A stretch of DNA of 48,283 nt from Flavobacteriales bacterium. Lineage in GTDB: Bacteria; Bacteroidota; Bacteroidia; Flavobacteriales_D; Sanyastnellaceae. The DNA lies in the NCBI GenBank assembly GCA_947463065.1, contig CANHSF010000002.1, positions 1 to 48,283 of the forward strand, read 5' to 3'. The translations under genes were made by a program, and so were the position numbers. Below the pieces are notes generated by a model that made no database searches, was not told where the DNA came from, and saw only the letters and a program-made list of their open reading frames with translations. Below, piece after piece: positions 4,272 through 37,660 of this stretch; position 1 is the first letter of the stretch; every line of letters starts with the position of its first letter.

Positions 4272-7200
4272 GTGAATCAGCCCAGTTGGACCACCCACTT
4301 CTATCGTTTTTGCTTTATCTCTGTCTTGTCCGTTTCGGTTTGGATGGCATTGGCCAATTCCACAACCTCTTCCCTTACACCACGGCGAACATTGCGCACG
4401 CAAAAAGCCAAGATGGAAGCCGATGAAATCAGCCCGGCCGATTTTGTTGCTTCAGTTGACACCTCGGGCACAGATACGTCGGATGTTGAACTGATTTGGC
4501 CCGTAGAAGACAACATCAATCCGAGCCAAGATCCGGGTGGCATCAACATTCCACTGCCCGACAACATCGATTACAACGTCGAATACAACCCAGAAACCGG
4601 ACAATACGAGGTGATCCAAACGGTGGGCAAGGGCATTGAGTATCGCCCCCGCACCAGCATGACGTTGGAGGAGTACATGAACCAGCAGAAGGATCAGAAC
4701 ATTTACGAGTACTTCAAAGAAATTCAACAGGAAGAAGATGAGGCCAACCGTGAATGGAGCAAGGTCATCAAGGTGGGAGGAGCTGGATTCGAAGGCATCT
4801 TCGGGAGCAACGAAATCGAAATTCGCCCGCAGGGTTCTGCCGAACTGACCTTTGGTTTGAACATTTCTAAAACCGAAAACCCACGTATTCCGCTTCGCCA
4901 ACGACGCATTACCACTTTTGACTTCGACCAAAAAATCCAGCTCAATGTGGTTGGAAATATCGGAACGCGCATGAAATTGAATGTGAACTACAATACCGAG
5001 AGCACATTCGATTTCGAAAACCAGATGAAACTTGAGTACACCGGAGACGAGGACCAAATCATACAAAAAATTGAATTGGGAAATGTCAGCCTTCCGCTCA
5101 ACGGTCAACTCATCCAAGGTTCCACCAGTCTATTTGGAGCCAAGCTTTCCACCAAATGGGGGCGTCTCCGCAACACTACGGTATTCTCCCAGCAAAAAGG
5201 AGAGCGCAAAGAAATCACCGTTCAGGGAGGTGCCCAGACCCAGGCCTTTGATATAACGGCCGATAACTATGAAGCCAATCGCCACTACTTTCTTTCGGGT
5301 TGGTTTCGCGACGAATACGACCGCGCATGCAGCTCGTTGCCCGTAGTGGGAAGTGGCGTAAACGTGACGCGAATAGAGGTTTGGCTGGTGAATTTGCAAG
5401 CCAATACCCAAGATGTTCGCAACGTTGTGGCTTTCTCTGATCTTGGAGAACCCACAGAGTACATGAGCCATGACCTTGTTTTTGATGCGGGCGGAACAAG
5501 CGACAACCGACTGTACAATCGCGGAGATATTGCCACAACACAATTGGGCAACCCCAGCAACCTCAACAACGACATATTCCTAGACTGTACGGATGGCCAG
5601 CCATTCTCCGATGCCATTCTCAATACTACAGGGACATCCCAAGCCATATCCGGCAACCCCGATTACATCGACATGGACAACGGCACACACTTCGAGCGCA
5701 TAAACAATATGCGCCGTTTGAATGCCTCAGAGTACAGCTACAACTCTCGACTTGGTTTCATTTCGCTCAAACAAAGCTTGAACAATGCCGAAGTATTGGC
5801 AGTGGCCTATGAGTACACTTTGAATGGAGAAACCTACCAAGTGGGAACCATTTCACAAGATGGATATGCTGCTCCGCAATCCCTTATCTTGAAGTTGATC
5901 AAGCCGAGTATCACCCGCGTCAAATTGGAAGATGGCTTTGCTGCTCCGCTTTGGGACAACATGATGAAAAACGTCTATTCGCTCGGCGCGTTTGGTATTT
6001 CACCCGAAAACTTCCGTCTCGATGTATGGTACAACAATCCAGCGACCGGGGTCAATCAAAACTATATTCCCCGAGAGCCATTGAACGGCACCCTGCTGCT
6101 TCAGGTTTTGAATTTGGACCGCATCGATGCACAGCAGATGCCCTACTCCGATGGATTTTTCGATTTCATTCAAGGCGCCTCCACCACCGGAGGATTGATT
6201 GATGCACAGAGCGGCCGCGTGTATTTCCCGGTTGTGGAGCCATTTGGTAGTCACTTGGCCAAAAAAATAGAAGATGGTTTTGGAGGCAATACCACCGAGG
6301 CGCAACAAGTGATCAACTCGGTAGTCTACCAGCCCTTGTACGACTCCACCAAAACCGTTGCTCAGATATTGTTTCCGAACCTCAACCGTTTCCGCATCAA
6401 AGGACAATACCAAAGTTCAAGCGGCAGCGAGATCTCCCTCAATGCACTGAACATACCGCAAGGAGCGGTGATCGTTACAGCCGGAGGCATCAAACTGCAA
6501 GAAGGGGTGGATTACACCGTGGACTACAACTTGGGTCGGGTGCGCATTTTGAATGAAGGCGTCATGTCCAGTGGCCAACCGATTAAAGTTTCGGTGGAAA
6601 GCAACTCGCTGTTCAACCTGCAGTTCCGAACGATGATTGGAACGCGGTTCGATTACACCTTCAATGAGCATTTAACCATCGGGGGTACACTTCTCAACCT
6701 GCGCGAGCGCCCCGTCACTCAAAAAGTCAATCAAGGCGATGAACCGGTCAACAATACGACCATCGGACTTGATGGAAACTTTCAAAAAGAAATTCCGGCT
6801 TTAACAACGATGGTGGATCGCATACCCTTTATCGAAACAAAAGCGAAGTCCAATGTGACGTTTTCAGCCGAAGCGGCCAAACTTTTTCCCGGACATAGTC
6901 GCGCTATATCGCGAGACGGAAATGCATATGTGGACGATTTTGAGGGCAGTCAAAGCGTAATCGATTTGCGTAGCATCAATCAATGGTTCTTGGCCAGCAC
7001 ACCCAAATTGCAGAACAGTTTGTTTCCCGAATCCGCGTTTGAGGATAGCTTGATCTACAACTACAACAGAGCGAAATTGAGCTGGTATGTGATCGATCCG
7101 CTCTTCTACCGCAATACAGGAGGACTCACTCCCGACAATATCACCGAAGACATCCAAAGCGATCACCGCATGCGTGAAATTCTCGAGGGCGAGGTATTCC

Positions 7201-10200
7201 CCAATCGCCAGCTACCTCAAGGCACGCCGCCCAACATTGCCACCCTCGACTTGACCTATCGACCCAATTTGCGTGGTCCGTACAACTACGATTTGCCCAG
7301 TGGAACAGGAATATCGGCAGGTCTCAATACAGATGGAACATTGGCCGATCCCGAATCGCGATGGGGCGGAATACAGCGGGCTCTTACCACTACCGATTTT
7401 GAAGCCAGCAATGTGCAATTCATTCAATTCTGGCTTATGGATCCATTCAACGCGGATGCGACAGCAAATGGCCAAGACACCGGTGGAGACTTGTATTTCC
7501 ATTTGGGGAATGTATCGGAAGACATCCTCAATGACAGCAAATGGAGCTATGAGAATGGATTTCCAACCGACAACAATGGATTGCAATTTGGCACCGAACC
7601 TAGCCCTTGGGGCAAATATCCTGACCCCGACAACTTCAATGTCGTCAATGCATTCGACAACAGTTTGGGCAATTACGAACAACAAGATATTGGTCTAGAT
7701 GGATTGACAAGCGCACAAGAAAACGCATTCTTTGCCGATTGGCTCAGCCAATTGCAAGGTTACCTCAACAGCGGTGCATACACCCAATACATTCAAGATC
7801 CATCGGCCGACGACTACGCCAACTTCCGCAGTTCCGATGCCGACAGCGACAACCTGAATACCATCGAGCGCTATGCCTCATTCAATGGTTATGAAGGCAA
7901 CTCCGATACCAGCACCCCCGATGGTTATCCGATAGCCGCTACAACCATACCCAACACCGAGGACATCAACCAGGACATTACCCTGAACACCATCGAAAGT
8001 TATTTTCAGTACAAAGTGAATTTGCGTCCCGGAGCTTTGGGCGAAAACAACATAGGCACCAACTACATTACCGATAGCTTCTTGACCACCCGCACCACCA
8101 TCAACGGGGAAGAGCGTCCAATCCGTTGGTATCAATTCAAGATCCCGATTGAGGAGTTTGAAAAAAGCGTTGGTGGCATTGCCGATTTTCGATCGATCCG
8201 TTACATGCGTGTGTTCCTCAAAGGTTGGGAAGAGGAAGTAACCCTTCGCTTTGCGCGATTGGAATTGGTTCGCGGCGAATGGCGCAAGTACATCAGTTCG
8301 TTGAATGGGCCACAAGAATTGGAGCCCAATGACGATCCATTGACCACCTTCAACATTGCAGCAGTCAACATTGAAGAAAATGGCAATCGCGAACCGATCA
8401 ACTACGTGATCCCACCTGGAATTTTGCGCGAGCAAGATGTGGCCAGCGCCAATCTTCGCAGTTTGAACGAACAATCGCTATCCATGGAGGTGTGCAATTT
8501 GGCCGATGGAGATGCACGCGCTGCATACCGCACCGTGAACTACGATATGCGCCAATACAAACGTTTGCGCATGTTTGCACACGCCGAGGCCTTGGGCGAG
8601 GAAAGCCAAATCAGCAACAAAGACTTGACGGTGTTCATTCGTTTGGGATCAGACTTCAACGAGAACTATTATGAGTATGAACTTCCGATGAAGCTTACGC
8701 CGTGGTTTGCCAGTGATGACGATGCCATTTGGCCCGAAGAGAATACGTTCGACATCAATTTGGAAGACCTCCAGAACCTCAAGGCTGGCCGACCAACTAC
8801 ATTTAACAACCTGGCGGAATTCGAAAAAATGATTGGCAATGCCCGAGTGGTGGTGCGCGGCAATCCCAACTTAGCGAATGTCACCGTTCTTATGATCGGA
8901 GTGCGCAATCCAGACAAGGACAAAAATGCCTTTGAAACCAATGACGATGGACGAACGAAGTGCGCAACCATATGGGTGAATGAATTGCGCTTGAGCGAAT
9001 TCAACGAGCAAGGCGGCTGGGCAGCTGTAGCCCGCATGAATGCGACACTTGCCGACTTTGCAACCGTTGCTGTTGCAGGTAACATCTCCACACCAGGTTG
9101 GGGCACGATAGAACAACGCGTACAACAGCGTCAGCAAGCTACGATCATGGGTTTCGATGCAAACTCTACCTTACAATTGGGTAAATTTTTTCCAGAAAAT
9201 TGGGGAGTTCAAGTGCCGATGTATTTGGGATATTCAGAAACGGTGAATACACCGCGATTCAGTCCATTGCAGCCCGACTTGGTGATGGACGACTTGCCCA
9301 ATGTGAATCAGTCGCTCAAGAAAAAATCGCAGGACTACGTCAAACGACGGAGCATCAATTTCACCAATGTGCGGATCGACCCAAAAAAGGACAACACAAA
9401 AACAGGTGCAGAAGAAGGTAAACCCGAAGCCAAGCCCGAAGCCAAACCCGACCCGAAAGGCGCTGGAGCAGGCGGTGCAGCGGGCGGTGAAAAGCCGAAA
9501 AAGGACCAATTCTTTGACGTCAAGAACTTCAGTGTTTCTTACAGCTACAACGAAGAATACCGGAGAGACATCAACATCGATTGGCGATTGAATAAAAGAT
9601 ACCGCGGTGCGTTTGATTATTCTTTCCAAAACAAACCCAAAGAGATCCGCCCATTTGCAAAAATTCCAGGCGTCAAAGACTCCAAATACCTCAAGTGGAT
9701 CAAGGAGTTCAATTTCTATCCAGGGATCAAACAAATCGGCTTCCACACCGAAATGAATCGCAGTTATGAGACGAGCCGAATCCGCAACAACACGTTGGAA
9801 TTGACGGGGGCGTATAGCGATATATTGATCAATACCCAGGTGCAAAAAACATGGAATTGGTCGCGTCAATACACGTTAAAATACGACATTGCCAAGAGCT
9901 TAAAGTTCGATTACACCGCTAACAACCTTGGTCTCGTTGGCGAGCCTCGTGGCCTCATCGACAAAGAGGATACCGATTGGTACCAAAACTACAAAGACAC
10001 CGTATGGTCCAATATCCGCGGTGGAGGCAATAACACACAGTTCAATCAAAACATGACCTTGAGTTATAAATTGCCATTCGACAAATTCCCGTTGATTGAC
10101 TTCATCAGCAGCGATGCGCGCTATGCAGCCACCTACCGTTGGGATCGCGCTCCATTTACCCAAGATTCATTGGGCAATACGATTCAAAATTCACGTCAAG

Positions 10201-11831
10201 TGCAATTGAATGTGCAGGGCAATTTCGAGACATTGTACAACAAGGTTCCCCTTTTGAAAGAGATCAATCAAGGCAAAAAAGACAACAAAAAAGACGATAA
10301 AAAAGGAAAAGGAAAAGAGGACCCGACAACCAAAGACGAATACGGCAAGGAAAAAGAGAAAAAGGAAAAAGAGGAGAAAGCCAATCCAGTGCATCTGGGT
10401 TTGCGTTTCTTGATGATGGTGCGCAATGTATCGGGATCCTACACGCGCAACGAAGGCATTTTGTTGCCGGGATATAACCGCTCCACTAAATTCATTGGTA
10501 TGGACGATGGATTTGATGGACCTGGATTTGGATTCATTGCTGGCCAACAGAACACCGATATTTGGGGCAATCCAACAGGAAACAACTACGCCTTGGACGC
10601 ATCGGCCAATGGTTGGATCATCAATTTGCCCACGCTCAACACCCAGTACAACGAAACGTTCTCCGAAACTTGGAACTACAAAATCAATCTTGAACCAGTT
10701 AAGAGCCTTAAGATTGAAATCATCGCAAACAAGACAGAGGGCCGCAATTTGACCAGTTTCTTCCGCTTCGACGAAGACACCGATCAGTTTGTGTTTGATA
10801 GTCCATTGGAAACAGGCAATTTCAGCGCAACCGTCAATACATGGTCCACTGCATTTGTCAAAGACGATCCCGAGGCCGGTTGGAACAGTAGAACATTCCA
10901 AAACTTCTTGGATTATCGTCGTGTGATCTCCGGTCGATTGAACACCTCGACCCACAACGAAGCCTCTCCACAAACCAATGGCTTCTACAACGGTTATGGC
11001 TCAACCTCACAAAATGTGGTTATTCCAGCATTCGTGGCGGCATATACCGGACAGTCGGCTACAGAAACGGCATTGAATGTTTTTGCTTCCAAGGTGCAGC
11101 CCAATTGGTCGCTCACCTACGATGGTCTAAACAAAATTCCAGCCATCAAAAAATACTTCAAGACCTTCAACCTTCGGCACCAATACCGCTCCACATTGAC
11201 GACTTCGTATGTCAGCAATCTCAACTACGTCGAAAATGGTGCAGGCCTGCCCACTGCGATTGACAGCAGCTACAATTATATCCCAGAGCAATTGATCAAT
11301 ACCGTTACGATCAGCGAACAGATCACACCGCTCAGCTTGGACATGACATTAAAAACGAAGAAATCGAAGAACCCTGAAAAAACCAACGAACCACAGGTCA
11401 AGCTCGAATACAAGCGCGACCGCACCGTTGCACTTGGCTTGACCAATTACCAGATCACAGAAACCAAGAGCAATTCGATTACCGTTGGATTGGGCTACAA
11501 GATCATCGACATCCCCAATCCGATTGGTCGCAAAAAGGGATCTAAACTTCCTGTGCAAGTGCTCAAAAACACCACCATCAATTTGCGCGCAGACATCACC
11601 ATGCGCGACAATGTTACATTGATTCGAAAAATGGTGGAGCAACAAAGTCAACCCACAGCCGGCCAACGACTCTGGAGCATCAAAACCAGCGCAGATATGC
11701 AGGTCAGCAAAAACTTGCAGATCCGTTTCTTCTACGATCACCAACTCAATCGCCCCAAAATTTCTACGTCGTTCCCGACCTCGAATATCAATACGGGTAT
11801 TGCATTGCGATTCAATTTGAACAACGACTAA
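4272..11831 (+). CDS. sprA: T9SS outer-membrane translocon / gliding motility protein SprA (Sov)
   Basis: The 2519-residue length matches SprA (Flavobacterium) and Sov (Porphyromonas), the giant beta-barrel pore through which T9SS cargo crosses the outer membrane. The start is GTG at 4272, 18 bases after ruvA; no ATG lies between, and the N-terminus then reads as a signal peptide (about 1-30). The N-terminal family signature, with GSAELTFGLN, LNVNYNTEST and a QKGERKEI stretch, spans about residues 180-320, and barrel-like alternating strands continue to a terminal FNLNND. Two charged low-complexity inserts are unusual: about 1702-1748 (Lys/Pro/Glu then Gly/Ala) and about 2001-2039 (almost all Lys, Glu, Asp, Gly). 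A terminator follows at 11864. Family assignment is firm; exact barrel topology cannot be read here. Confidence 0.96.
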   Translation: MNQPSWTTHFYRFCFISVLSVSVWMALANSTTSSLTPRRTLRTQKAKMEADEISPADFVASVDTSGTDTSDVELIWPVEDNINPSQDPGGINIPLPDNIDYNVEYNPETGQYEVIQTVGKGIEYRPRTSMTLEEYMNQQKDQNIYEYFKEIQQEEDEANREWSKVIKVGGAGFEGIFGSNEIEIRPQGSAELTFGLNISKTENPRIPLRQRRITTFDFDQKIQLNVVGNIGTRMKLNVNYNTESTFDFENQMKLEYTGDEDQIIQKIELGNVSLPLNGQLIQGSTSLFGAKLSTKWGRLRNTTVFSQQKGERKEITVQGGAQTQAFDITADNYEANRHYFLSGWFRDEYDRACSSLPVVGSGVNVTRIEVWLVNLQANTQDVRNVVAFSDLGEPTEYMSHDLVFDAGGTSDNRLYNRGDIATTQLGNPSNLNNDIFLDCTDGQPFSDAILNTTGTSQAISGNPDYIDMDNGTHFERINNMRRLNASEYSYNSRLGFISLKQSLNNAEVLAVAYEYTLNGETYQVGTISQDGYAAPQSLILKLIKPSITRVKLEDGFAAPLWDNMMKNVYSLGAFGISPENFRLDVWYNNPATGVNQNYIPREPLNGTLLLQVLNLDRIDAQQMPYSDGFFDFIQGASTTGGLIDAQSGRVYFPVVEPFGSHLAKKIEDGFGGNTTEAQQVINSVVYQPLYDSTKTVAQILFPNLNRFRIKGQYQSSSGSEISLNALNIPQGAVIVTAGGIKLQEGVDYTVDYNLGRVRILNEGVMSSGQPIKVSVESNSLFNLQFRTMIGTRFDYTFNEHLTIGGTLLNLRERPVTQKVNQGDEPVNNTTIGLDGNFQKEIPALTTMVDRIPFIETKAKSNVTFSAEAAKLFPGHSRAISRDGNAYVDDFEGSQSVIDLRSINQWFLASTPKLQNSLFPESAFEDSLIYNYNRAKLSWYVIDPLFYRNTGGLTPDNITEDIQSDHRMREILEGEVFPNRQLPQGTPPNIATLDLTYRPNLRGPYNYDLPSGTGISAGLNTDGTLADPESRWGGIQRALTTTDFEASNVQFIQFWLMDPFNADATANGQDTGGDLYFHLGNVSEDILNDSKWSYENGFPTDNNGLQFGTEPSPWGKYPDPDNFNVVNAFDNSLGNYEQQDIGLDGLTSAQENAFFADWLSQLQGYLNSGAYTQYIQDPSADDYANFRSSDADSDNLNTIERYASFNGYEGNSDTSTPDGYPIAATTIPNTEDINQDITLNTIESYFQYKVNLRPGALGENNIGTNYITDSFLTTRTTINGEERPIRWYQFKIPIEEFEKSVGGIADFRSIRYMRVFLKGWEEEVTLRFARLELVRGEWRKYISSLNGPQELEPNDDPLTTFNIAAVNIEENGNREPINYVIPPGILREQDVASANLRSLNEQSLSMEVCNLADGDARAAYRTVNYDMRQYKRLRMFAHAEALGEESQISNKDLTVFIRLGSDFNENYYEYELPMKLTPWFASDDDAIWPEENTFDINLEDLQNLKAGRPTTFNNLAEFEKMIGNARVVVRGNPNLANVTVLMIGVRNPDKDKNAFETNDDGRTKCATIWVNELRLSEFNEQGGWAAVARMNATLADFATVAVAGNISTPGWGTIEQRVQQRQQATIMGFDANSTLQLGKFFPENWGVQVPMYLGYSETVNTPRFSPLQPDLVMDDLPNVNQSLKKKSQDYVKRRSINFTNVRIDPKKDNTKTGAEEGKPEAKPEAKPDPKGAGAGGAAGGEKPKKDQFFDVKNFSVSYSYNEEYRRDINIDWRLNKRYRGAFDYSFQNKPKEIRPFAKIPGVKDSKYLKWIKEFNFYPGIKQIGFHTEMNRSYETSRIRNNTLELTGAYSDILINTQVQKTWNWSRQYTLKYDIAKSLKFDYTANNLGLVGEPRGLIDKEDTDWYQNYKDTVWSNIRGGGNNTQFNQNMTLSYKLPFDKFPLIDFISSDARYAATYRWDRAPFTQDSLGNTIQNSRQVQLNVQGNFETLYNKVPLLKEINQGKKDNKKDDKKGKGKEDPTTKDEYGKEKEKKEKEEKANPVHLGLRFLMMVRNVSGSYTRNEGILLPGYNRSTKFIGMDDGFDGPGFGFIAGQQNTDIWGNPTGNNYALDASANGWIINLPTLNTQYNETFSETWNYKINLEPVKSLKIEIIANKTEGRNLTSFFRFDEDTDQFVFDSPLETGNFSATVNTWSTAFVKDDPEAGWNSRTFQNFLDYRRVISGRLNTSTHNEASPQTNGFYNGYGSTSQNVVIPAFVAAYTGQSATETALNVFASKVQPNWSLTYDGLNKIPAIKKYFKTFNLRHQYRSTLTTSYVSNLNYVENGAGLPTAIDSSYNYIPEQLINTVTISEQITPLSLDMTLKTKKSKNPEKTNEPQVKLEYKRDRTVALGLTNYQITETKSNSITVGLGYKIIDIPNPIGRKKGSKLPVQVLKNTTINLRADITMRDNVTLIRKMVEQQSQPTAGQRLWSIKTSADMQVSKNLQIRFFYDHQLNRPKISTSFPTSNINTGIALRFNLNND

Positions 11832-16692: not shown

Positions 16693-18366
16693 TCACTGCC
16701 TCACCGGTTTTCCTTCGATTACCTTGACAACTCTGCCATTGTCGTACTCTTGCTTTAAAAGCACCTTTCCACTCTTTTCATCGTAACGGATATATACACC
16801 GTGCGGTTTATTGGCTTTGTAATGGCAGTCTTCGATGACTTTCCCGCGCTCGTTGTACATTACACTTCGACCATTGAGTTTGCCTTCTTCGTATTCGCAC
16901 TCGCGCAGAACACCGCCAAACGGATAATAATAGATCCATTTGCCATGGTTCTTCCCGTTTTTATAAGCCCCCTTTGCCTCTAGTTTCCCCGCTTCATTGT
17001 AGAGCTCCACATCTCCATTCAGCGAGCCATCATCGCTGTAGGTTTCTTTCTTCTCGATCATACCCGAATCGCGGTAATAATTCCATTCGCCCACTTTATA
17101 CTCAGCTATTTCAGCGGTGACCACCGAATCGGGATTCATTTTATAGACCTTGGTCCATTTCTCCATGTTGGCATTTTTGGTCTTCTTCACCAGCCAAGAA
17201 CCTTCATAATTTTTGATTCCATTGGGGTACCATCCTTGCCATTTTCCCGACATTTTACCGCCTTTGTAGGAACCGATATCCTTCTTCGTTCCGTTGTCGT
17301 ACCAGCTTTGCCATTCGCCTTCTTCTTTATCTTCCTTGAATTCGCCCATCATGAGCGGTTTACCGTTTTCGAAGAAATACTCCCACTTGCCCTGTTTCAA
17401 GCCGCGCTGATACAATCCCTTTTTCCACACTGCACCATTGATGTAATAGTACTCCCAAGGCCCGTCCTTTTGGCCATCCATGAATTTGCCTTTGCTTTGC
17501 AAATGACCATCGCCATAATTGTACACCCAGTCGCCGTGCTGCACATCGTTTTTAAATTCTCCTTGCATCTCCACCACTCCACTTTCCTTGTACCAGATCC
17601 AAAGCCCTGTCTTTTTCCCCATGGCATATTCACCACGCACATTGAGCTGTCCATTGGCATAATAATCTTCCAATTGGCCATCCAAAATCCCGTTGCTGTA
17701 GTGCGCTTTTTGTTTTAATTTTTGACTTGGAAAATATTCTACAAAAACTCCTTGGCGTTTGTCGTCTTTATAATTGCATTGTTCGCGTGTATTGCCGCTG
17801 GAATAATAGGAAGCCACCTCGCCATTTCGCAGACCATTTTCATAAGTCAACTTCCTCTTGGGTTTGCCGTTTTCGAAATACTCCATCACAATGCCCTTTC
17901 CTTGGTTGATTTCGCAAACATCGGGCTGAGAACATTGTTTCAGAATGCGAATAAACTGTTCATCGTGCCACTCCACGAGCATGGTATCCCCTTTTGGAAA
18001 AAAGTAAGACCACTTTCCGATTTTTTGTCCCGATTTGTAATGCCCCATTTCCAGCAACACCGAATCGGCAGAAAAACTCTTTTGGATACTGTCTTGTACA
18101 TCATTCTTAAAATAACCTTCGACCATGATGCGTCCGTTTTTATGATACCTCAAAACAGGACCATGCATTTTGCCGCGTTTGTACAGCGTGGTTTCTTCGA
18201 GCTTCCCGTCTTCGGTATAATACTTCCACAGACCATCTTCCAGACCATAGAGGTAGGTGCCCTCGCTTCTCAATTTGCCATTGGAATGGTAGTCCTTAAA
18301 ATCTTGTTTCTGAGCAAAAAAAGGCTTGCAAAAAAACACCATGCAGAGGATAATGCAGAATCTCAT
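16693..18366 (-). CDS. Secreted MORN-repeat protein
   Basis: The 557-residue protein starts with a signal peptide (about 1-18, cleavage near FFAQ) and is otherwise almost entirely MORN_2-type repeats of about 22-25 residues, such as 'YHSNGKLRSEGTY..G..DG' and 'WYPNGIKNYEGSW'. I count roughly twenty, of which several are imperfect. In Bacteroidota such proteins (often annotated 'YwqK-like antitoxin') are periplasmic or surface proteins of unknown role; nothing here supports a toxin-antitoxin function, since no toxin-like neighbour is present. No T9SS sorting domain is visible, as the C-terminus ends in a repeat-like EGKPVRQ. A near-consensus promoter lies 5 bases upstream of the ATG. Confidence 0.88.
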   Translation of the reverse strand: MRFCIILCMVFFCKPFFAQKQDFKDYHSNGKLRSEGTYLYGLEDGLWKYYTEDGKLEETTLYKRGKMHGPVLRYHKNGRIMVEGYFKNDVQDSIQKSFSADSVLLEMGHYKSGQKIGKWSYFFPKGDTMLVEWHDEQFIRILKQCSQPDVCEINQGKGIVMEYFENGKPKRKLTYENGLRNGEVASYYSSGNTREQCNYKDDKRQGVFVEYFPSQKLKQKAHYSNGILDGQLEDYYANGQLNVRGEYAMGKKTGLWIWYKESGVVEMQGEFKNDVQHGDWVYNYGDGHLQSKGKFMDGQKDGPWEYYYINGAVWKKGLYQRGLKQGKWEYFFENGKPLMMGEFKEDKEEGEWQSWYDNGTKKDIGSYKGGKMSGKWQGWYPNGIKNYEGSWLVKKTKNANMEKWTKVYKMNPDSVVTAEIAEYKVGEWNYYRDSGMIEKKETYSDDGSLNGDVELYNEAGKLEAKGAYKNGKNHGKWIYYYPFGGVLRECEYEEGKLNGRSVMYNERGKVIEDCHYKANKPHGVYIRYDEKSGKVLLKQEYDNGRVVKVIEGKPVRQ

Positions 18367-21320: not shown

Positions 21321-22711
21321 TGCGCCAAATAACCTTTATCCTCCTCTTTGCTTTTGCGAGTCATTTTGTCAAAGCAGCAATGACCTTGCATATTGCGGCA
21401 GTTCCTCAACTGACTCCGCTTTGGGACACGCTATATGCGGCTGGCAATTTCAACAACTGGGAAGAAAACGATCCCGATTTCATGTTCATACCCGACGGAA
21501 GCGGTTGGTCGGTAACCATCAGCGGATCGGAGAACATGGCATTGGAATTCAAAATTACCCGAGGCAGTTGGAGCAGCGTTGAAGGCGACGCCCTAGGCAA
21601 TTACATCGGCAATCGCACTGCGGTATTGTCGAACAACACGACCCTTTCGATCAGCGTGGCGGGTTGGGAGGACTTGTCAGGAAATTCGACGATTACGAAC
21701 AACGTGCGGATTTTGGACAGTAATTTTCTTATTCCACAGCTCAATCGCCAGCGGAAGATTTGGCTTCGCTTGCCCGAGGGGTATCAAGAAAACGGCGACG
21801 GCTATCCCGTGGTTTATGTGATGGACGGACAAAACACGATGGACTTGGCGACCTCTTTTTCAGGAGAATGGGAAATCGATGAGGCATTGGAATCTTTCGA
21901 GAGCGAGGCCTGTCGGAATGCCATTGTGGTAGCCATTGACAACGGCGGATCGCTTCGAATCGATGAATACTCCCCTTGGGTAAACAGCCAGTACAACGAA
22001 GGCGGAGAAGGAGATGCCTTTGCCACATTCTTGGCCGAAACCTTAAAACCCGCCATTGATGAGCATTTCAACACCCTGCCTGCTGCTGAGCAAACAACGA
22101 TAGTGGGTTCTTCGCTAGGCGCATTGATGGCCACCTACGCCATGTGCAAATACCCCAATGCATTTGGCAATGGCGGAATGTTTAGTCCAGCGTATTGGTT
22201 CAACACCGAAATTTTTGGGTATGCCATCAACCATCCTTTGCCCGCTTCAGCGCGGGTGTACTTTGTATCGGGCACCAACGAAAGCAACGATATGGTCAAC
22301 GATATGCAGGACATGCAAAACACCCTGATCAACGTCGATTCCGCCAACCCCGAAACACTTTTGCTCACCCATACCGATGGGGCGCATAGCGAATGGTATT
22401 GGCGCAGAGAGTTTCCTGCCGCCTATGCTTGGTTGACCCAATGCAGCAGCACCTCAACCGCTGACATTGCCCAGCCAATTGTACGTGTGTTTCCCAACCC
22501 CTTCGTGGATAGCCTTACGATAATGCCGATATCCAACGAGGCAATGGATGTGAAGATCATCGACGTCCGCGGTAGAGAATGTTTGGTAAAGCGCATAAAA
22601 GGAGAAAACCGTTTAGATTTGTCGTCCCTGTCGGAAGGATTGTACACCCTTGTGCTGACCGCCACGACGGGCGAAATTATCCATCAAGAAAACATCATCA
22701 AAAATGAGTGA
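21320..22711 (+). CDS. T9SS-secreted esterase (esterase D/Fes-like alpha/beta hydrolase)
   Basis: The 463-residue protein has a signal peptide (about 1-17). Residues about 18-115 form a beta-sandwich resembling glycogen-binding/CBM-type domains ('YAAGNFNNWEENDPDF'). The alpha/beta hydrolase of the PF00756 'putative esterase' type follows, with PVVYVMDGQNTMD, nucleophile S265 in VGSSLGAL and a probable catalytic His in DGAHSEWYW. A T9SS sorting domain with VFPNPFVDSL ends the protein. Relatives act on feruloyl esters, siderophore esters or other acyl esters; the substrate here is unknown. The start overlaps the previous stop by one base, and the end overlaps the ridA-family gene by 8 bases. 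Confidence 0.88.
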   Translation: MRQITFILLFAFASHFVKAAMTLHIAAVPQLTPLWDTLYAAGNFNNWEENDPDFMFIPDGSGWSVTISGSENMALEFKITRGSWSSVEGDALGNYIGNRTAVLSNNTTLSISVAGWEDLSGNSTITNNVRILDSNFLIPQLNRQRKIWLRLPEGYQENGDGYPVVYVMDGQNTMDLATSFSGEWEIDEALESFESEACRNAIVVAIDNGGSLRIDEYSPWVNSQYNEGGEGDAFATFLAETLKPAIDEHFNTLPAAEQTTIVGSSLGALMATYAMCKYPNAFGNGGMFSPAYWFNTEIFGYAINHPLPASARVYFVSGTNESNDMVNDMQDMQNTLINVDSANPETLLLTHTDGAHSEWYWRREFPAAYAWLTQCSSTSTADIAQPIVRVFPNPFVDSLTIMPISNEAMDVKIIDVRGRECLVKRIKGENRLDLSSLSEGLYTLVLTATTGEIIHQENIIKNE

Positions 22712-27228: not shown

Positions 27229-27867
27229 ATGAAAAATCACATTACAGTATCCATTGCTGTGCTGCTGCTTTGCGTTGCATTGACAGCTTGCAAAAAAGAA
27301 AAGAACGAACGCGGTCCACTTGTCGGTAAAGTCATGTTGATCAATTCCACAACGCCTGTTGATCAAGCCTTGGTTCGATTCATTCGTTCCGAATCCAATG
27401 GTCTATTTAATCCACCAACACTTATCGTTACCCAAGAAGTCATTACGGGACCAGATGGCAAATTCACCATTCCAGATACCACCTCAGCTGAATATGTTCA
27501 AGCTTGGGGATTGCAATCCATATACGGTGGAGAGCCTTCGCAGGAAACAGACATCGAACATTTTCTTGCCGTTGGAGGAGCCCCCAAATTGTATCTGACG
27601 CCACCTGCTTGGCTAAAAATTCGCGCATTGGATGTAGAACCGCTCAATCCCGAATACACGTTTGTTTATTTCAGCACTACACCAAATAGCCTTGACGGAT
27701 GGGAAGATTGTGTGATGGAAACCATTACCTATTCAACAAAAGGCAATGTGGAAATACCCCTTACATTCAAAAAATTCAACACCCAAACGTCCGCCTTTGA
27801 ATATGTTTTCGTAGACAGTGCGCCCATCGCACCATTTGATACATCACAATTCGTTTTCGAATATTGA
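27229..27867 (+). CDS. Hypothetical lipoprotein
   Basis: The 212-residue protein has a type II signal peptide with lipobox LTAC, so Cys21 is the probable lipidated residue, followed by KKEKNER. Residues about 30-105 resemble a carboxypeptidase-regulatory-like beta sandwich ('LVGKVMLINSTTPVDQALVRF', then 'ITGPDGKFTIPDT'). The rest is beta-rich and unrecognised. It is probably tethered at the outer membrane. It stands alone, with 328 bases before it and 374 after. Its function is unknown. Confidence 0.75.
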   Translation: MKNHITVSIAVLLLCVALTACKKEKNERGPLVGKVMLINSTTPVDQALVRFIRSESNGLFNPPTLIVTQEVITGPDGKFTIPDTTSAEYVQAWGLQSIYGGEPSQETDIEHFLAVGGAPKLYLTPPAWLKIRALDVEPLNPEYTFVYFSTTPNSLDGWEDCVMETITYSTKGNVEIPLTFKKFNTQTSAFEYVFVDSAPIAPFDTSQFVFEY

Positions 27868-28241: not shown

Positions 28242-31200
28242 ATGAAACATTTCTATTTGCTGCTGTTGGCAGCACTTGTACATGGCCATGCCTATGGCCA
28301 ATTGGACTCGGTGTATCTTCATTTGGACACCACCCAACTCACCACCAATTTCTTTTGGGACGAATTTCAAGACCATCAATTTCCACCCAAACCGAATGAG
28401 GCGACACCTCTTCAACCGGGGCGAATCAGAAACATCATTCAGCACCTGGATAGATTCGAGGTCCATGACAACCTTGGTCTTCTTCCGGGGTATGCCGAAT
28501 TCCACTCGAACAATGAAAACCTTCGGATGCAAAACAATTGCATTCCGATTACCATCATTGACATCAAATACAATCACATCGATACCAACGCCGTGATCGA
28601 TGGCCGCCTGTTCCTTGTAGACGACGAACTCCATCAACTTCCGAATGCCTCTGTATTCGGAGAGTCGCAAACCACCCTGATCTATGCCGACATCAAGGAC
28701 TACGAGGCGGGCACCTATTCTTTTTGTTTGAGTCCAACACAGTTCTTTCACAACTACGGCGATGCACCCGCTGCCATTCGCATCGATTTCGGCGATGGTC
28801 TTGGGCTGCGCGATATTGTTATAGGCCAGAGCATTCAGGTCACCTATGGCACCAACGACCAAGAGCGCACACTGCATGCTGAAATCACTCGAGGCGATGA
28901 AGTTCATCATGGACTGATGCAATTGCGTTCGAACAATTGCAACTCCACATTTGCCGATCCCACTTTTCCGGCACCTTTTCCCAACAATGCAACAGCAGAA
29001 TTTCCTTGGTTGTTGTCCACCACCTACCAAGGCACTGTGGTTTGTGGCAATGCGTATACTTTGGTGAGTGGCGATTTCGACAAACCCTTCCTATTTGTAG
29101 AAGGTATCGATTTCAATCGCGCTCGGAGCGCAGAGCGCAATGGCGACTTCGGTTGGTGCCAATTGACGAGTGGAATCGACGATCCCGAATACGATTATTC
29201 GATGCTTGCCCGCATGCCATTGCTGTTGAACGAAGCCATTGCGCATGGCTATGACATTGTACTATTGGATTTTTGTGATGGAGCAACCTACATCGAACAC
29301 AATGGCCAGTTATTGATTCATTTAATTCAAACCATCAATGCCCACAAAGTTGGCAACGAACCCCTCGTGGTGGCTGGAGCCAGCATGGGAGGACAGGTAG
29401 TGCGCTATGCCTTGGACTTTATGGAAGCGAATGATCTCCCACACTGCACGAGGCTCTATATATCGCTCGACTCACCGCATGAAGGAGCCAACATTCCAAT
29501 TTCCATCCAACAAGCCATTTATTTGCAGTCCAGCAGCGATCCAGCGGCGCAAAATTTTGTCCAAGATTACCTCAGCCGTCCAGCAACGAAGCAATTGCTG
29601 AACAACCGCTACACCCCCAATGCATCCATCACCAGTTATTGGCACCCCGAGGAAAACAGCCAATGGTATGAACTCATGCACGATTGGGGCATGCCCCATT
29701 ACAGCCGAAACATAGGCATTGCCAATGGCAGTTTAAACGGATCAGGGCTCGCTGCACAATATCTCGGTCACTATAGCCCTGATGAGCCCATTATCAGCTA
29801 TACCTGCGAGGCATTTGCCACGTGGTCTGGTCCAGAAGGCCGCATATTCATGGCCAACTCTGGAGGCGATCCGTACTACAATCAAGAGGGTATTGAGAGC
29901 AATTCGAGTTCCAATGTATCCGTGCACATCAAGTCAACGGATGCCAAAGCCACCTTTCTCAGATGGCAGAACTTGTTGTTTTTGCCATCAGCGCTTTTTC
30001 TCCCCGAGGTTGAGCACAAAACCGCACGAGTGCCCGCCAATGCGGTAAGTTGGGATTATGCACCCGGTGGATACCGCACGACCGCCAAAGACTTTGTCGA
30101 TGCCGTCAACGCATCAGAAAAACTTAAACCACCATGCAATCCAATTACCGAATACCTGAAAAGGCATTGCTTCATTCCTACAAGCAGTGCACTGGGAATT
30201 CAGACCAGCAATCCCTTTCTAAATTGTGCTGACTACTTTCTGAATAATCCAAATCACCAGCTATTTGATCGCATAATTGCTCCTGAAAACACGAATGAAC
30301 CGCACACGTATATTTCTGAAGAAAACTTGGCCTTTATACTTGAAGAGTTGTTGATAGGCGAGACACAAGACGGATCGCCATTGGTGCCCTTGGAGTTCAC
30401 ATCGGGTATATTCAACTATGGCCGCGAAGGCTTCAACTACCTGCGTGGCATCCATGTTACATCGGGCGCACGTTTGGCTGTAAACAGCGAATACGAACTC
30501 CACTATGGTTTGGACAATTGGGGTTATCCTGCCAACAATACACACTTCAAATTGAATACCCTTAGCCATTGCGCAGGGTCGCATGTGTTGATCGACCATG
30601 GAGGCACTTTGGAGATGGGATCACAGAATTTACAAACCACCGCTGAATTGAAATTGCTCCCAGAATCATCGCTCACCATAGGATCAGAAGGGCATTTGAA
30701 ATTGCATCCTGGAAGTAGCATCGTGATTGAACGCGACGCCAGTATGATTCTTTACACCGATGCCACATATGAATTAGTCGATGGATGGATCGAGGTCCTT
30801 GCAGGTGGCAAACTGATCATTCGTTCCGCAGGCAACGGCGATCAAACGGCTTTACTTGAACTCATCGGCAACAACTCCAAAATTCTGTTGCACGGAGGTG
30901 AATTGGTGATAGAAGCAGGCACCACACTTGCCATACAGCACAATGGGCAAGCAGGAGGCTACATCGCGGTAAATGACGCTCAACACAACAACATTCTTCT
31001 GCACCCCAATGCAAAATTATTGCTCAGCGGAAATGGCAGCAATGACTTGCTCTTGGACATTTCCAACCAATCCGATGTATGGACTGGCGTTGGTACCACC
31101 GGATTGATTCAATTGCAAAACGGCCTTGTAAAAATGCATCATGGCGGTACCCTGTGGACCAAGCACCGCATCCAATGTGCCAACCTGCGCATCGAGGATC

Positions 31201-33110
31201 CGTATTATCAAGAAGGTTTAGCGCCAGCCACCATCTTCATCACCAATCAAAATACCAGTGCATGGTACAATTGTGAATTTGACCGTGTGAAATACGAAGC
31301 TTGGCGCACCCACAGTTCATTGCACACCTGTACATTCCGCGACCTCTATGAAGGTGTAGCCATTTCTGAAGGCAGTTTCAACATTCAAAACAGCCTCTTC
31401 CAGGGCACCTCATTGCGCTCCAACAGCTTGAGCAATCTCAGTGTCATCGGAGGCAGTCATTTTAGAAACAACTTCACGGGATTTTGCATTGAAGACGAGA
31501 GCCTCGTTGAGTTGATGATTTCGTCATCCTCCATGGCCGATAGCAAAAACGGATTGTATAAAATTGGCGGCAAACTCAGTTTAAAATGCAATGCATTCAA
31601 CGCATTAGATGAAACTGCTGTCACCGTTGACCGTTGTCAAATCAACGCATCCTCGACAAGCGGAGCGGGATACAACACCTTTCGGAATGTAAGCACTTGC
31701 ATCCTAATGAAATATTGTCCAGGGTTGGACTTCTACAAAGGATACAATGATTTCTCCGGATACACCGCCAACTGCATAATCGGAAGCATGTGGGGCAAAC
31801 ACCTGTGTAAAGATTGCGCCACCTGGCAAGACGCCTCCAGCAATTATTGGGGAGCAGCATCGCCATTTGGCATGGGCTTTCAAACAGCCAATGGCTTGTA
31901 TAAACCCGAAATGGAAGAAGTAGCGATCTCGATTTATTATGTGAACGGCTCCACGGGTTGCAACATCAACAGTGAAAACGGACAGTCTCAAGGTTGTGAG
32001 CTGATTCTATTTGACCTCAACCCCACCCTGCCCAAAGCATGTGGAAGTGGCAGGCCCGTTGTTCGCAAACAAAAAAACATAGTTGCACAAAACAATCCGC
32101 AATTGCGACAATCCGCAGGTGCTGCTCAAGGCCAATTGCGTGAAGAAGCCTTGGACCTTGGCAATCCCATTCTACAGACCGCCCATTTCAACGATGTTGT
32201 GCTTGATAGCGCGCTGGTTTATGCGGCAAGTCAAATGGAGTTGTTCGATAGCTTGGGCAACGACAGCTATGCCAACGACCTCTTTCACGAAATCCTGACA
32301 AGCGGACTGGACGCAAGCCACTCCGATATTCGTTGGAAAATGCATTGGGCACGCTACCACATGAAGGGCTGCATTGAGCGCATGTTTGTAGAACAAGAAC
32401 TCACCGCATCCAACAACGCATCAAGTTTTGAGAATCCCATTCAAAAATATGTGGATGTTTTGAATCTCATGACCGATACCTTGCTAACCGATTCAACATT
32501 TCGCGAACAATTTTATTTGGAGCTGGACAAAGCCCAGCTATTGCGCACCTTGGGGCAATCTCAGTTGGCAAGAAACGCATTTAGCCATTTGGACGATTGC
32601 CAATTGGATGCGCCAGAGCAAATTGCACTGAACAATTGGTTACTGGAAGTTGATCAAGAAATAAGTTTGAGCGAACAATACCTTGAGGAAGGACTAGCGC
32701 CTGAGCAAGTTGTACTGAATATCGACACTACCGACTATACCGCGCCAGTAAGTTACTCGAGCAGCAATTACTATTTCGGCATGTGGATTCACGATCCCCA
32801 GTCGTTTACCTTTATGAGCTGTGGCGAAGATGCCCAGTACCGCAATCAAACAGCAACCTCGGTTGTCGAGGCCTCTCGCGTTTACCCCAATCCCGTTCAT
32901 GAGGCATGTTTTTTATTGCCCTCGACAAGCGGATTGATCACCATCGAATGTTGGAGTGTGCATGGAGCATTGATCAGCAGCCAAACGATCCTGGTCGAAA
33001 AAATCCAACCGATCGCATTGGACACTTGGCTACCTGCATCGCCCGGAGCCTATTTCCTTCATGTGAAAAGCGCCAAAGGCCATGAGGTTTTCAAGCTTAT
33101 CAAAGAATAA
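28242..33110 (+). CDS. T9SS-secreted multidomain protein: alpha/beta hydrolase plus beta-helix
   Basis: The 1622-residue protein starts at ATG 28242, which opens a signal peptide (about 1-20, HAYGQ); an in-frame upstream ATG is not preferred. Residues about 20-270 are a beta-rich lead region. An alpha/beta hydrolase (about 280-480) shows FLFVEGIDF, YDIVLLDFCDGA, nucleophile S381 in AGASMGGQV and LDSPHEGANIP, resembling PGAP1/lipase-type hydrolases. Residues about 730-1260 have the short strand-turn repeats of a right-handed beta-helix. A helical segment (about 1330-1480) precedes the T9SS type A sorting domain (about 1545-1622, RVYPNPVHEAC). The catalytic Asp and His were not placed with certainty. 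The protein is probably a surface lipase or esterase attached to an adhesive stalk; substrate is unknown. Confidence 0.82.
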   Translation: MKHFYLLLLAALVHGHAYGQLDSVYLHLDTTQLTTNFFWDEFQDHQFPPKPNEATPLQPGRIRNIIQHLDRFEVHDNLGLLPGYAEFHSNNENLRMQNNCIPITIIDIKYNHIDTNAVIDGRLFLVDDELHQLPNASVFGESQTTLIYADIKDYEAGTYSFCLSPTQFFHNYGDAPAAIRIDFGDGLGLRDIVIGQSIQVTYGTNDQERTLHAEITRGDEVHHGLMQLRSNNCNSTFADPTFPAPFPNNATAEFPWLLSTTYQGTVVCGNAYTLVSGDFDKPFLFVEGIDFNRARSAERNGDFGWCQLTSGIDDPEYDYSMLARMPLLLNEAIAHGYDIVLLDFCDGATYIEHNGQLLIHLIQTINAHKVGNEPLVVAGASMGGQVVRYALDFMEANDLPHCTRLYISLDSPHEGANIPISIQQAIYLQSSSDPAAQNFVQDYLSRPATKQLLNNRYTPNASITSYWHPEENSQWYELMHDWGMPHYSRNIGIANGSLNGSGLAAQYLGHYSPDEPIISYTCEAFATWSGPEGRIFMANSGGDPYYNQEGIESNSSSNVSVHIKSTDAKATFLRWQNLLFLPSALFLPEVEHKTARVPANAVSWDYAPGGYRTTAKDFVDAVNASEKLKPPCNPITEYLKRHCFIPTSSALGIQTSNPFLNCADYFLNNPNHQLFDRIIAPENTNEPHTYISEENLAFILEELLIGETQDGSPLVPLEFTSGIFNYGREGFNYLRGIHVTSGARLAVNSEYELHYGLDNWGYPANNTHFKLNTLSHCAGSHVLIDHGGTLEMGSQNLQTTAELKLLPESSLTIGSEGHLKLHPGSSIVIERDASMILYTDATYELVDGWIEVLAGGKLIIRSAGNGDQTALLELIGNNSKILLHGGELVIEAGTTLAIQHNGQAGGYIAVNDAQHNNILLHPNAKLLLSGNGSNDLLLDISNQSDVWTGVGTTGLIQLQNGLVKMHHGGTLWTKHRIQCANLRIEDPYYQEGLAPATIFITNQNTSAWYNCEFDRVKYEAWRTHSSLHTCTFRDLYEGVAISEGSFNIQNSLFQGTSLRSNSLSNLSVIGGSHFRNNFTGFCIEDESLVELMISSSSMADSKNGLYKIGGKLSLKCNAFNALDETAVTVDRCQINASSTSGAGYNTFRNVSTCILMKYCPGLDFYKGYNDFSGYTANCIIGSMWGKHLCKDCATWQDASSNYWGAASPFGMGFQTANGLYKPEMEEVAISIYYVNGSTGCNINSENGQSQGCELILFDLNPTLPKACGSGRPVVRKQKNIVAQNNPQLRQSAGAAQGQLREEALDLGNPILQTAHFNDVVLDSALVYAASQMELFDSLGNDSYANDLFHEILTSGLDASHSDIRWKMHWARYHMKGCIERMFVEQELTASNNASSFENPIQKYVDVLNLMTDTLLTDSTFREQFYLELDKAQLLRTLGQSQLARNAFSHLDDCQLDAPEQIALNNWLLEVDQEISLSEQYLEEGLAPEQVVLNIDTTDYTAPVSYSSSNYYFGMWIHDPQSFTFMSCGEDAQYRNQTATSVVEASRVYPNPVHEACFLLPSTSGLITIECWSVHGALISSQTILVEKIQPIALDTWLPASPGAYFLHVKSAKGHEVFKLIKE

Positions 33111-34974: not shown

Positions 34975-35287
34975 GGCGCTGAGGTGTTAAGGTTTGAAGT
35001 CGTGAACAGGATGATCGTTTGATCTCCACTAATTTGAGTGAAAATCCCGAACGTGGGCTTTGAAATTTAGATTCGGTCGGAATTCGCGGATTTTCGGCTG
35101 GGTTCTGCCCAACAAAGGAAACAGCAAAACATAGCATTGTGATTTTCAAAGTTATTTGAATGCGAGACGGTCGCGACGAGATGAAAAAAACATGATTCAA
35201 AACCATGCAAAGCCATTATTTTTGAGAGCACAAAACAAATTGACAACAGCTGCGTTGGAGACAACGTTTAAGCGATATTGCGTTCCC
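34975..35287. other. Divergent intergenic stretch upstream of porZ
   Basis: It holds the start regions of the 512-residue protein gene (-) and porZ (+). A -7 box for porZ is at 35217-35224. An ORF extension upstream of porZ's ATG is in frame but has no signal peptide and is not used. No clear promoter was found for the minus gene. Confidence 0.5.
35217..35224 (+). promoter_or_regulatory. -7 box for porZ
   Basis: TATTTTTG is a perfect TAnnTTTG, 63 bases before the ATG at 35288. No TTTG lies at -33, so support is partial. Confidence 0.35.
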
Positions 35288-37660
35288 ATGAAAAGTACAT
35301 TCTACCATACATCTGCTGCTGCCCTCATCGTGATGCTTGTGATTGCAACCAAGCCTTTGCTCGGCCAATACAGCATAGGCACATGGCGCGATCATTTGCC
35401 GTACAATGAATTGGTGGATGTTTGTGTCATTGGCGAAACGGTTTATGCAGCTTCGCCGTATGGCATGTTTCGTTACGACAATGTGAGCGGGGAAGTTCAG
35501 CGCATCTCCAAAATCAATTTTTTGAGCGATGTAGGCATCAGTTGCATCGAGTACGATCCAGTAAGTCAGTATGTGGTGGTTGGCTATCAGAATGGCAATT
35601 TGGACCTCATCAACTCTACCAGTGGTATCAATATTCCCGACATCGCGCTGAGCAATATCATCGGTGATAAAAAGATATATGATATCTATCCCCGAGGCGA
35701 TCGACTTTATCTGAGCACCGGATTTGGCGTTGTGGTGATCGACACACCCCGCCGAGAAGTGAAAGAAACGTATTTCATTGGTGAGAACGGAGCCCCAGTC
35801 ACCGTATTTGATGTAGTCATTGCTGAGGATAAAATTTATGCTGCTACTGCCGACGGACTTTTGCGTGCCGAAGTGAGCAATCCCTTTTTGCCCAACTACG
35901 CTAACTGGAATGAAGTGACAGACCTGCCCATGGACACCACCGTCAAACACATCGAGTACTTTCAGGGCTATATTCTGATGGCACAAGGATCTACCGATCG
36001 CGACGTGTTGTATCGCAAACCATTTGCTTCCGACACTTGGGAAACTTTTATTGACTTTGAAGGCCTTCGCTTCAATGAGGTATGGTCCGATGGCGAGTGG
36101 TTTACGGTGAGTTGCAATTTGACCTACTTCTTGTACCACTACGACTTCAACCAAAATTACAATGTACCTATTCACAACGGCTATCAGGTGCACACCAACA
36201 ATTCGGTGGTCGGACGGTATGGAATCATTTGGACGGCAGACAAATTCAATGGCCTACTCTACAAGATGGGTGACAACGAAAAGAATATCATTCCTCAGGG
36301 ACCCGTGTCAGGCGATTCCCGACGATTGGAAGCATTTGACAACAACATTTGGGTTGCACACGGCGGCATCACACCGGACTGGACCAACCAATGGCGCGTT
36401 ACGGGCTTGTCTGGATTTGTCGAAGAGACTTGGCGTCACATCGGCCCTGAGCCATCGGTGATCAATGGACAAAACGAAAGCCCGAACGATCCTGCGGTAT
36501 GCGACATCATGGATGTGGCAGTGAATCCGCTCAACCAAAATGAGCTCGCTCTTGCCTCTTGGGAAGAAGGTTTGGTGATGGTGAATATTGCCAACGAAAC
36601 CGGTGTAGTGACCAATGGAGATCCGGAGGAAGATGGCATTGTACCGGGCGCAGCGCAGCAAAGCTTTGCACCCGGATGGAAAGGCGTCGCAGGTGTGGCC
36701 TACGATGCAGACGGCATACTTTGGGTCACCAACAGCTTTACCGACAAAGCCCTTCACGCGATCGATTTGGGTGGCAATTACCACAGTTTTGATTTATCGC
36801 CGAGTGTAACTGCATCGGATAAAGTTGGCGATATATTGATCGATTACAATGGATTCATTTACATAACGGTCTTCAACAAAGGCTTGCTGGTGTTCAACGA
36901 CAACGGTACATTGGGTTCGACCAGTGACGACAACTTCAAGCTTCTGAGCGACGAAGAAGGCAATGGCGGATTACCCAGTGCCGATGTGCAGTGCATGGAA
37001 GTTGATTTGGATGGTGAAGTATGGGTTGGAACAGCGCAAGGACTGGGTATATTTTACAATTCGGCTGGAATCTTCAGCGAGGACGTATTCGATGCTGAAC
37101 CCATCTTGATCCAGCAGGACGGCAACACCCAAGAGCTCCTCGGCACCGAAAGCATTACATGCATCAAGATTGATGGCAGCAACCGCAAATGGATCGGCAC
37201 CCAAAACAGTGGTGTTTATCTCTTCAGCGATGATGGCTTGCAAGAGATTTATCATTTCACCGAAGACAACAGTCCACTTTACAGTAACACCATTTACGAT
37301 ATTGCAATCAACCACAGCAATGGAGAAGTATTGTTTGCAACTGAGCAAGGTGTGATTGGTTTTTTCTCCACGGCTACCAAATTTTATGAAGACGTTGAAA
37401 ATGCACGTGTATTCCCGAATCCTGTTAGGCCCGATTACACTGGGAACATCACCATCGACGGCTTGGCTTACAACACCAATGTAAAGATTACCGATATCCA
37501 AGGCAATATTGTTTTTGAAACAATCAGCGAGGGCGGTCGCGCCGTTTGGAATGGCAAGCGATTGGATGGAGCACGGCCAGCAACTGGAGTTTATTTGGTG
37601 TTTATCACCAATCCCGATGGATCGGCCGATACCACGCGCAAACTTACCTTCATCCGTTGA
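35288..37660 (+). CDS. porZ: T9SS attachment-complex protein PorZ
   Basis: The 790-residue protein starts at ATG 35288, opening a signal peptide that ends near LLGQ. The mature N-terminus YSIGTWRDHLPYNELVDV and the SKINFLSDVGISCIEYD, NGNLDLINS and LYLSTGFGVVVID stretches match the PorZ propeller family as I know it. Two beta-propellers (about 25-690) precede a C-terminal T9SS-type domain (about 705-790, RVFPNPVRPDYTG). In Porphyromonas PorZ sits on the cell surface with PorU, PorV and PorQ and supplies the lipopolysaccharide to which cargo is attached after sorting-domain cleavage. With sprA it is the second T9SS component in the window. Its stop codon abuts the folC stop directly. porU is not visible here. 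Confidence 0.9.
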   Translation: MKSTFYHTSAAALIVMLVIATKPLLGQYSIGTWRDHLPYNELVDVCVIGETVYAASPYGMFRYDNVSGEVQRISKINFLSDVGISCIEYDPVSQYVVVGYQNGNLDLINSTSGINIPDIALSNIIGDKKIYDIYPRGDRLYLSTGFGVVVIDTPRREVKETYFIGENGAPVTVFDVVIAEDKIYAATADGLLRAEVSNPFLPNYANWNEVTDLPMDTTVKHIEYFQGYILMAQGSTDRDVLYRKPFASDTWETFIDFEGLRFNEVWSDGEWFTVSCNLTYFLYHYDFNQNYNVPIHNGYQVHTNNSVVGRYGIIWTADKFNGLLYKMGDNEKNIIPQGPVSGDSRRLEAFDNNIWVAHGGITPDWTNQWRVTGLSGFVEETWRHIGPEPSVINGQNESPNDPAVCDIMDVAVNPLNQNELALASWEEGLVMVNIANETGVVTNGDPEEDGIVPGAAQQSFAPGWKGVAGVAYDADGILWVTNSFTDKALHAIDLGGNYHSFDLSPSVTASDKVGDILIDYNGFIYITVFNKGLLVFNDNGTLGSTSDDNFKLLSDEEGNGGLPSADVQCMEVDLDGEVWVGTAQGLGIFYNSAGIFSEDVFDAEPILIQQDGNTQELLGTESITCIKIDGSNRKWIGTQNSGVYLFSDDGLQEIYHFTEDNSPLYSNTIYDIAINHSNGEVLFATEQGVIGFFSTATKFYEDVENARVFPNPVRPDYTGNITIDGLAYNTNVKITDIQGNIVFETISEGGRAVWNGKRLDGARPATGVYLVFITNPDGSADTTRKLTFIR

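Follow-up and report, generated by a model that had tools for sequence, protein, structure and literature searches.

The gene at positions 28242..33110 (+ strand, stop codon included) of the window, the 48,283-nucleotide stretch of DNA analysed here, encodes a protein that is best explained, with a probability that we put at about 0.6, as a surface-displayed lipase or esterase carried on a modular stalk and accompanied by a lipoprotein partner. The reading frame translates without an internal stop into one 1622-residue protein, in agreement with a preliminary description that had proposed a lipase-type hydrolase, a beta-helix-like stalk, a helical segment and a type IX secretion system (T9SS) sorting domain in a single chain. 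Two features go beyond that description and constitute the main interest of the locus: the linkage to a lipoprotein gene upstream, and the exchange of heads above a shared distal stalk.

The protein opens with a Sec-type signal peptide, judged by eye (residues 1-20, 28242..28301); Q20 is retained in 22 of the 26 alignment rows that have a residue at that position. It is followed by a mostly-beta N-terminal domain delimited by the strands of the predicted model (residues 22-230, 28305..28931), which our own profile also detected in distant relatives. The alpha/beta-hydrolase domain occupies residues 236-700 (28947..30341), as indicated by the model, structural alignment, residue conservation and Pfam matches in relatives. 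Beyond it lie a predicted right-handed beta-helix stalk (residues about 716-1262, 30387..32027), a helical segment (residues about 1321-1482, 32202..32687) and a T9SS type A sorting domain (residues 1547-1622, 32880..33107). A search of the 3.06 Mb, 87 % complete genome of origin returned this gene as the sole full match, the second match consisting of a sorting domain only. No PDB sequence matched the whole protein at E<=1, and Rfam returned nothing at gathering scores across the window. Around the gene, promoter-like (9, shuffle mean 9.9) and terminator-like sites (10, shuffle mean 7.4, sd 2.8) were about as frequent as in shuffled sequence.

The lipase-type alpha/beta hydrolase was borne out by structure prediction. 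An AlphaFold2 model of residues 20-720, built from 33 aligned sequences, had a mean pLDDT of 86.4 and displayed a nucleophile elbow within a lipase-like fold. The structural aligner, in whose ranking rows within 1 Z count as tied, placed Candida antarctica lipase B (3icv) at the top (Z 17.6, rmsd 3.1, 214 residues), and Foldseek recovered 413 chains at E<=0.001, many of them esterases or lipases, with TM-scores that were low for so long a query. No Pfam hydrolase matched the window protein at E<=0.01; around residues 356-420 it scored under the cut-offs of PGAP1 (14.3/24.3), LCAT (13.7/21) and DUF676 (13.8/20.3). Within alignment A1 (n=33, including three members without a hydrolase, from L045, L049 and L062), these families were matched at E<=0.01 by 20/33 (PGAP1), 12/33 (DUF676) and 6/33 (LCAT) members. 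The relatives L053 and L080 exceeded the gathering cut-offs of PGAP1 and DUF676, and L097 those of DUF676 and LCAT, not PGAP1. When the hydrolase profile was compared with PDB sequences, the outcome was a single weak local match, to a palmitoyl thioesterase (E 0.31), which was set aside.

Conservation was assessed in 79 sequences, obtained from 112 ORFs with a hydrolase match after removal of 33 duplicates or fragments. The motif G379-A-S-M-G-G contains the expected nucleophile S381 (29382..29384), which is serine in 79/79 rows and is flanked in the model by a strand and a helix. The putative catalytic histidine, H688 (30303..30305), is present in 76/79 rows, the other three having a gap. For the acid, D410 (29469..29471) is the likeliest candidate, with D in 77/79 and E in 2/79 rows. 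We prefer it because it combines a conserved acid with a place directly behind the strand next in line to the nucleophile helix in the predicted model, the position at which pancreatic lipase has its acid. Since D338 and E395 are likewise acidic in 79/79 rows and the D676 position is D or E in 66/79, D410 is described only as the likeliest, and the triad S381-D410-H688 is favoured by about two to one over S381-D676-H688 from these alignments. N495 (N in 64/79) and S649 (S in 79/79) were considered and rejected, neither being a usual acid.

The beta-helix and the helical segment were also recovered by prediction. The model of residues 690-1622 had a mean pLDDT of 82.2 and contained a right-handed beta-helix for which the aligner, run on Foldseek candidates, gave as best match the cyanophage Pam1 tailspike (Z 17.7, 415 residues, rmsd 3.7), with NosD at Z 16.2; Foldseek alone returned nothing at E<=0.001 for the same model. 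The aligner also found similarity to the adhesin PfbA, to autotransporter passengers and, at Z about 13.8 to 17.2, to PL6 lyases and AlgG/AlgE epimerases, with an rmsd of 18-20 in several of the PL6 rows. At the level of predicted fold, both the lipase-like hydrolase and the beta-helix were present, so that the refuting outcome named in the preliminary description (no triad or no beta-helix) did not arise there; the triad itself is a candidate one drawn from conservation. The proposed helical segment corresponds to helices that the model places at about residues 1321-1482, and our own profile found it in full-length relatives. Matches of TssA/VasJ models to this segment were far under cut-off and were discarded.

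The C-terminal sorting domain was supported by a TIGR04183 match (25.1 bits against a cut-off of 23; 30.2 bits for the same protein in the genome scan) and by profile A2, which matches solved T9SS C-terminal domains, with Pfam's own tail model below cut-off in the window protein (18.9 vs 27). Genes for the secretion system lie on the same contig as the cargo, namely sprA (4272..11831, +; PF14349, E 1.5e-181) and a gene for a PorZ-like T9SS protein (35156..37660, +; PF21544, E 2.7e-33). The protein therefore has the three traits of a T9SS type A cargo: a sorting domain, a signal peptide (by eye) and T9SS genes in its genome. The same genome contained 132 TIGR04183 matches at E<=0.01. Elsewhere in the window we observed a second T9SS-sorted hydrolase (21230-22711, +, 493 aa; Esterase PF00756, E 2.3e-30, plus a sorting domain), an 81-bp tandem repeat of 2.4 copies (3-199) opening a gene for a PKD/HYR-like sorting-domain protein, and a 557-aa MORN-repeat protein (16693-18366, -; PF07661, E 5.5e-46). 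No lipid or polymer pathway was seen among the neighbouring genes in the window.

Judged by sequence similarity, the window protein is a member of a widespread family rather than a one-off, and no name for the family was found. A search with the window protein matched 37 of 60 genomes, its own counted, with relatives in 30 of the 36 other genomes of the same taxonomic family and in 6/23 from other families of the order; the matches in G011 and G030 did not span the hydrolase, and the gene in G016 was truncated at the edge of its contig. Scanning public genomes with the single protein yielded no confirmed relative. A scan using two short conserved patterns from a narrower alignment (A3) yielded 73 confirmed loci, mostly labelled Bacteroidota (Flavobacteriales, Bacteroidales, Saprospiraceae and others), the labels being those of metagenome bins. 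Labels other than Bacteroidota were Calditrichia (L100) and Latescibacterota (L107), with L108 and L120 labelled merely as bacterium; same-family contigs carried the labels Flavobacteriales, Crocinitomicaceae and Bacteroidetes, several bins being labelled Chryseobacterium gleum. Some relatives were broken or enlarged. Genome G050 carried two relatives, each in two ORFs (L051, 9351-14351; L065, 8395-13514), one match having an internal TAG, and others were broken into successive ORFs (L103, 7905-12456; L135, 7197-11645; L117, 1432-4413; L120, 7198-9275). Longer relatives were found in L080 (4356-11432, 2358 aa), which carries extra hexapeptide and PKD repeats, and L099 (7710-14504, 2264 aa).

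Our own profiles divided the relatives into three classes: those with hydrolase, helix, helical segment and sorting domain; those lacking the helical segment; and those in which hydrolase and sorting domain occur without the helix (L053, L060 and L097). In addition, three loci (L045 and L062 in G030, L049 in G011, the two genomes belonging to one genus) displayed the distal helix and helical segment beneath a different, non-hydrolase N-terminal half, with the sorting domain also present wherever the contig extends that far. The module profiles were trained partly on these sequences, and the window protein alone also found them, matching contig C57 of G030 at 2.0e-99 over residues 873-1610, contig C144 of G030 at 1.5e-53 over 870-1458, and G011 at 5.0e-48 over 1284-1612 and 2.5e-25 over 867-1218. 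Because these distal matches recur under a non-hydrolase head, the junction near residue 867 looks like a site of head exchange. A search with the stalk only recovered the other-head proteins too and matched 32/120 genomes. The other head was present in 6/60 genomes; in G043, G046, G054 and G059 it sits on contigs without any match to the window protein. The head of L045 matched no Pfam family and no PDB sequence at E<=1. Such an exchange suggests that the stalk serves as a display module that can be reused.

The gene directly upstream on the same strand (27229..27867, +) encodes a 212-aa lipoprotein with the lipobox L-T-A-C21. Its first half weakly resembles CarboxypepD_reg (2/9 members, best E 0.0033) and transthyretin-like proteins (E 0.041), and related lipoproteins diverge fast, with 14-54 % identity to that of the window. 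We counted as linked any lipoprotein of 130-270 aa within 520 bp upstream, recognized by our own lipoprotein pattern, in 94 loci left after repeated contigs had been dropped from 112, using mechanical ORFs of at least 300 aa with the upstream side visible. A lipoprotein lay directly upstream of 34/59 hydrolase-plus-helix ORFs, 7/28 hydrolase-only ORFs and 2/3 stalk ORFs with another head, compared with 1/22 other sorting-domain ORFs and 13/325 other ORFs; the size and distance limits were chosen after the data had been viewed, were the same for all classes, and the counts ignore kinship. The first lipoprotein pattern (102/1007 background ORFs) missed evident cases and was loosened after that was seen; the looser version recognized 35/52 upstream genes, compared with 86/881 ORFs of the background. 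An iterated lipoprotein search took in 40 sequences, 9 of them background ORFs, so membership is loose.

By the same criterion, 25 of the 59 hydrolase-plus-helix ORFs had no linked lipoprotein. These included near relatives (L035-L039, L042, L047, L048 and L075) and a group, drawn from L131-L141, in which the upstream gene is thioredoxin-like. Weaker relatives of the lipoprotein lie apart from hydrolase genes in many genomes, several near other sorting-domain genes. Use of the lipoprotein as a marker for the hydrolase was rejected: its 11 strongest matches among 60 genomes were just upstream of the hydrolase, but 10 of the 11 were rows of the profile itself. In L045 and L049 a different kind of lipoprotein was found upstream. 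Because the gap between the lipoprotein and hydrolase genes is wider in the window (375 bp) than in relatives (157 bp in the same-genus L064, <105 bp in most others), co-transcription is uncertain here. We also observed tandem lipoprotein gene copies in L032 (5291-6157 and 6749-7402) and L153 (1584-2228 and 2297-2941), and, in L160, L162 and L166, a different gene group that recurs near sorting-domain proteins of ~600 aa and includes relatives of the lipoprotein. In Bacteroidales, hydrolases without the helix (L111, L115, L116, L118, L128 and L129) lie between a ~440-aa gene, immediately upstream, and a downstream gene of ~250 aa that is lipoprotein-like.

As we read the locus, the protein would be a lipase- or esterase-like serine hydrolase whose nearest Pfam families are PGAP1, DUF676 and LCAT. 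It probably leaves the cell in two steps, through Sec and the T9SS in turn, and would be retained at the surface by type A sorting. Its beta-helix, together with the helical segment, would form a reusable stand-off stalk holding the head away from the outer membrane, from where the head may obtain nutrients by cleaving ester bonds of lipids or of polymers resembling them. The lipoprotein from the preceding gene most likely partners the head, be it as an anchor, as a folding aid or as an inhibitor. The preliminary description had left a choice between a surface-displayed lipase and a depolymerase. Conservation, fold and sorting domain uphold the lipase-type hydrolase on a stalk; the depolymerase, in which the beta-helix is itself catalytic in the manner of a polysaccharide lyase or epimerase and the hydrolase strips acyl groups, was not supported and appears very improbable, even with PL6 lyases and AlgG/AlgE epimerases among the fold matches. 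In a 35-row alignment, limited to columns with at least 20 residues, the columns of residues 700-1260 kept at >=80 % are mainly glycine, asparagine, aromatics and cysteine, and D1258 (20/23) is the sole charged residue among them. That pattern fits a stalk with a structural or binding role better than it fits a lyase, unless the active site differs from one relative to the next.

An alternative is that the protein is an adhesin, its helix attaching to a surface or glycan and its hydrolase being accessory. The likeness of the helix to tailspikes, PfbA and autotransporter passengers and the retention of the distal stalk beneath a non-hydrolase head would fit, yet S381, H688 and the acid at 410 are kept in 76-79/79 rows and hydrolases with a sorting domain occur without any helix (L053, L060 and L097), leaving this reading unlikely. 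T6SS lipase effectors have periplasmic immunity lipoproteins, and the window protein might by analogy be a lipase weapon exported by the T9SS with the lipoprotein conferring immunity, a reading consistent with the fast divergence and frequent linkage of the lipoprotein (14-54 % identity; 34/59), the tandem genes in L032 and L153 and the pairing of a different head with a different lipoprotein in L045 and L049. However, the linked gene is absent in 25/59, related lipoproteins are found apart from hydrolases, the head is conserved, unlike variable toxin tips, and the window's genome has a single copy, so that we regard a weapon as improbable. A broader proposal, to which we give similarly little credence, is a widespread modular surface system of Bacteroidota in which heads are interchangeable on a beta-helix stalk delivered by the T9SS and every head has a lipoprotein of its own encoded upstream, that of the lipase head being its cognate inhibitor; if true, this would amount to a T9SS lipase-immunity system. 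Under the preferred reading of a displayed lipase or esterase, the locus is of value because sorting-domain proteins are numerous and most lack a known partner. The hydrolase and lipoprotein offer a concrete pair with which to ask how Bacteroidota manage a secreted enzyme able to harm their own membranes.

Several known systems share parts of this arrangement. T6SS lipase effectors likewise set a lipase-fold enzyme beside a lipoprotein gene, but the window protein would use the T9SS route, many of its relatives lack the linked gene, and its lipoprotein is only a putative inhibitor. The preliminary description knew of no named example, which holds for this architecture in the literature searched: among titles and abstracts, where absence is not absence from print, none joined type IX secretion, lipase, beta-helix and sorting domain, and none joined parallel beta-helix and type IX secretion. 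It does not hold for T9SS-sorted esterases without a stalk. PET27 and PET30 (Aequorivita, Kaistella; PDB 7PZJ) resemble the window protein in combining an alpha/beta hydrolase with a C-terminal T9SS sorting domain, described as PorC-type, and have an Asp-His-Ser triad (PMC8767016). In the 7PZJ sequence, profile A2 finds its match in the tail part (E 4.6e-7). They differ in being of PETase/cutinase type without a beta-helix stalk, and the consulted parts of that report mention no lipoprotein partner (PMC8767016). The PGAP1/DUF676/LCAT-like hydrolases (PF07819, PF05057, PF02450) share sequence around the nucleophile with the window family, whereas the window protein falls under all three cut-offs, is part of a large T9SS cargo and belongs to a family with an invariant acid right after the strand following the nucleophile helix. 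Of the solved structures that were aligned, Candida antarctica lipase B (3icv; Z 17.6, 16 % identity over 214 residues) and Bacillus BlEst2 (6wpy; Z 17.4, 17 % identity over 221 residues) come closest in fold, and both lack a stalk. The stalk fold is shared with the cyanophage Pam1 tailspike, NosD and PL6 lyases (Z 17.7, 16.2 and 15.4-17.2) at 9-13 % identity, whereas in the window protein the helix joins an enzyme to a sorting domain as a stalk. By prediction, the window protein appears to bring known kinds of parts together in a combination for which we found no name and which is widespread.
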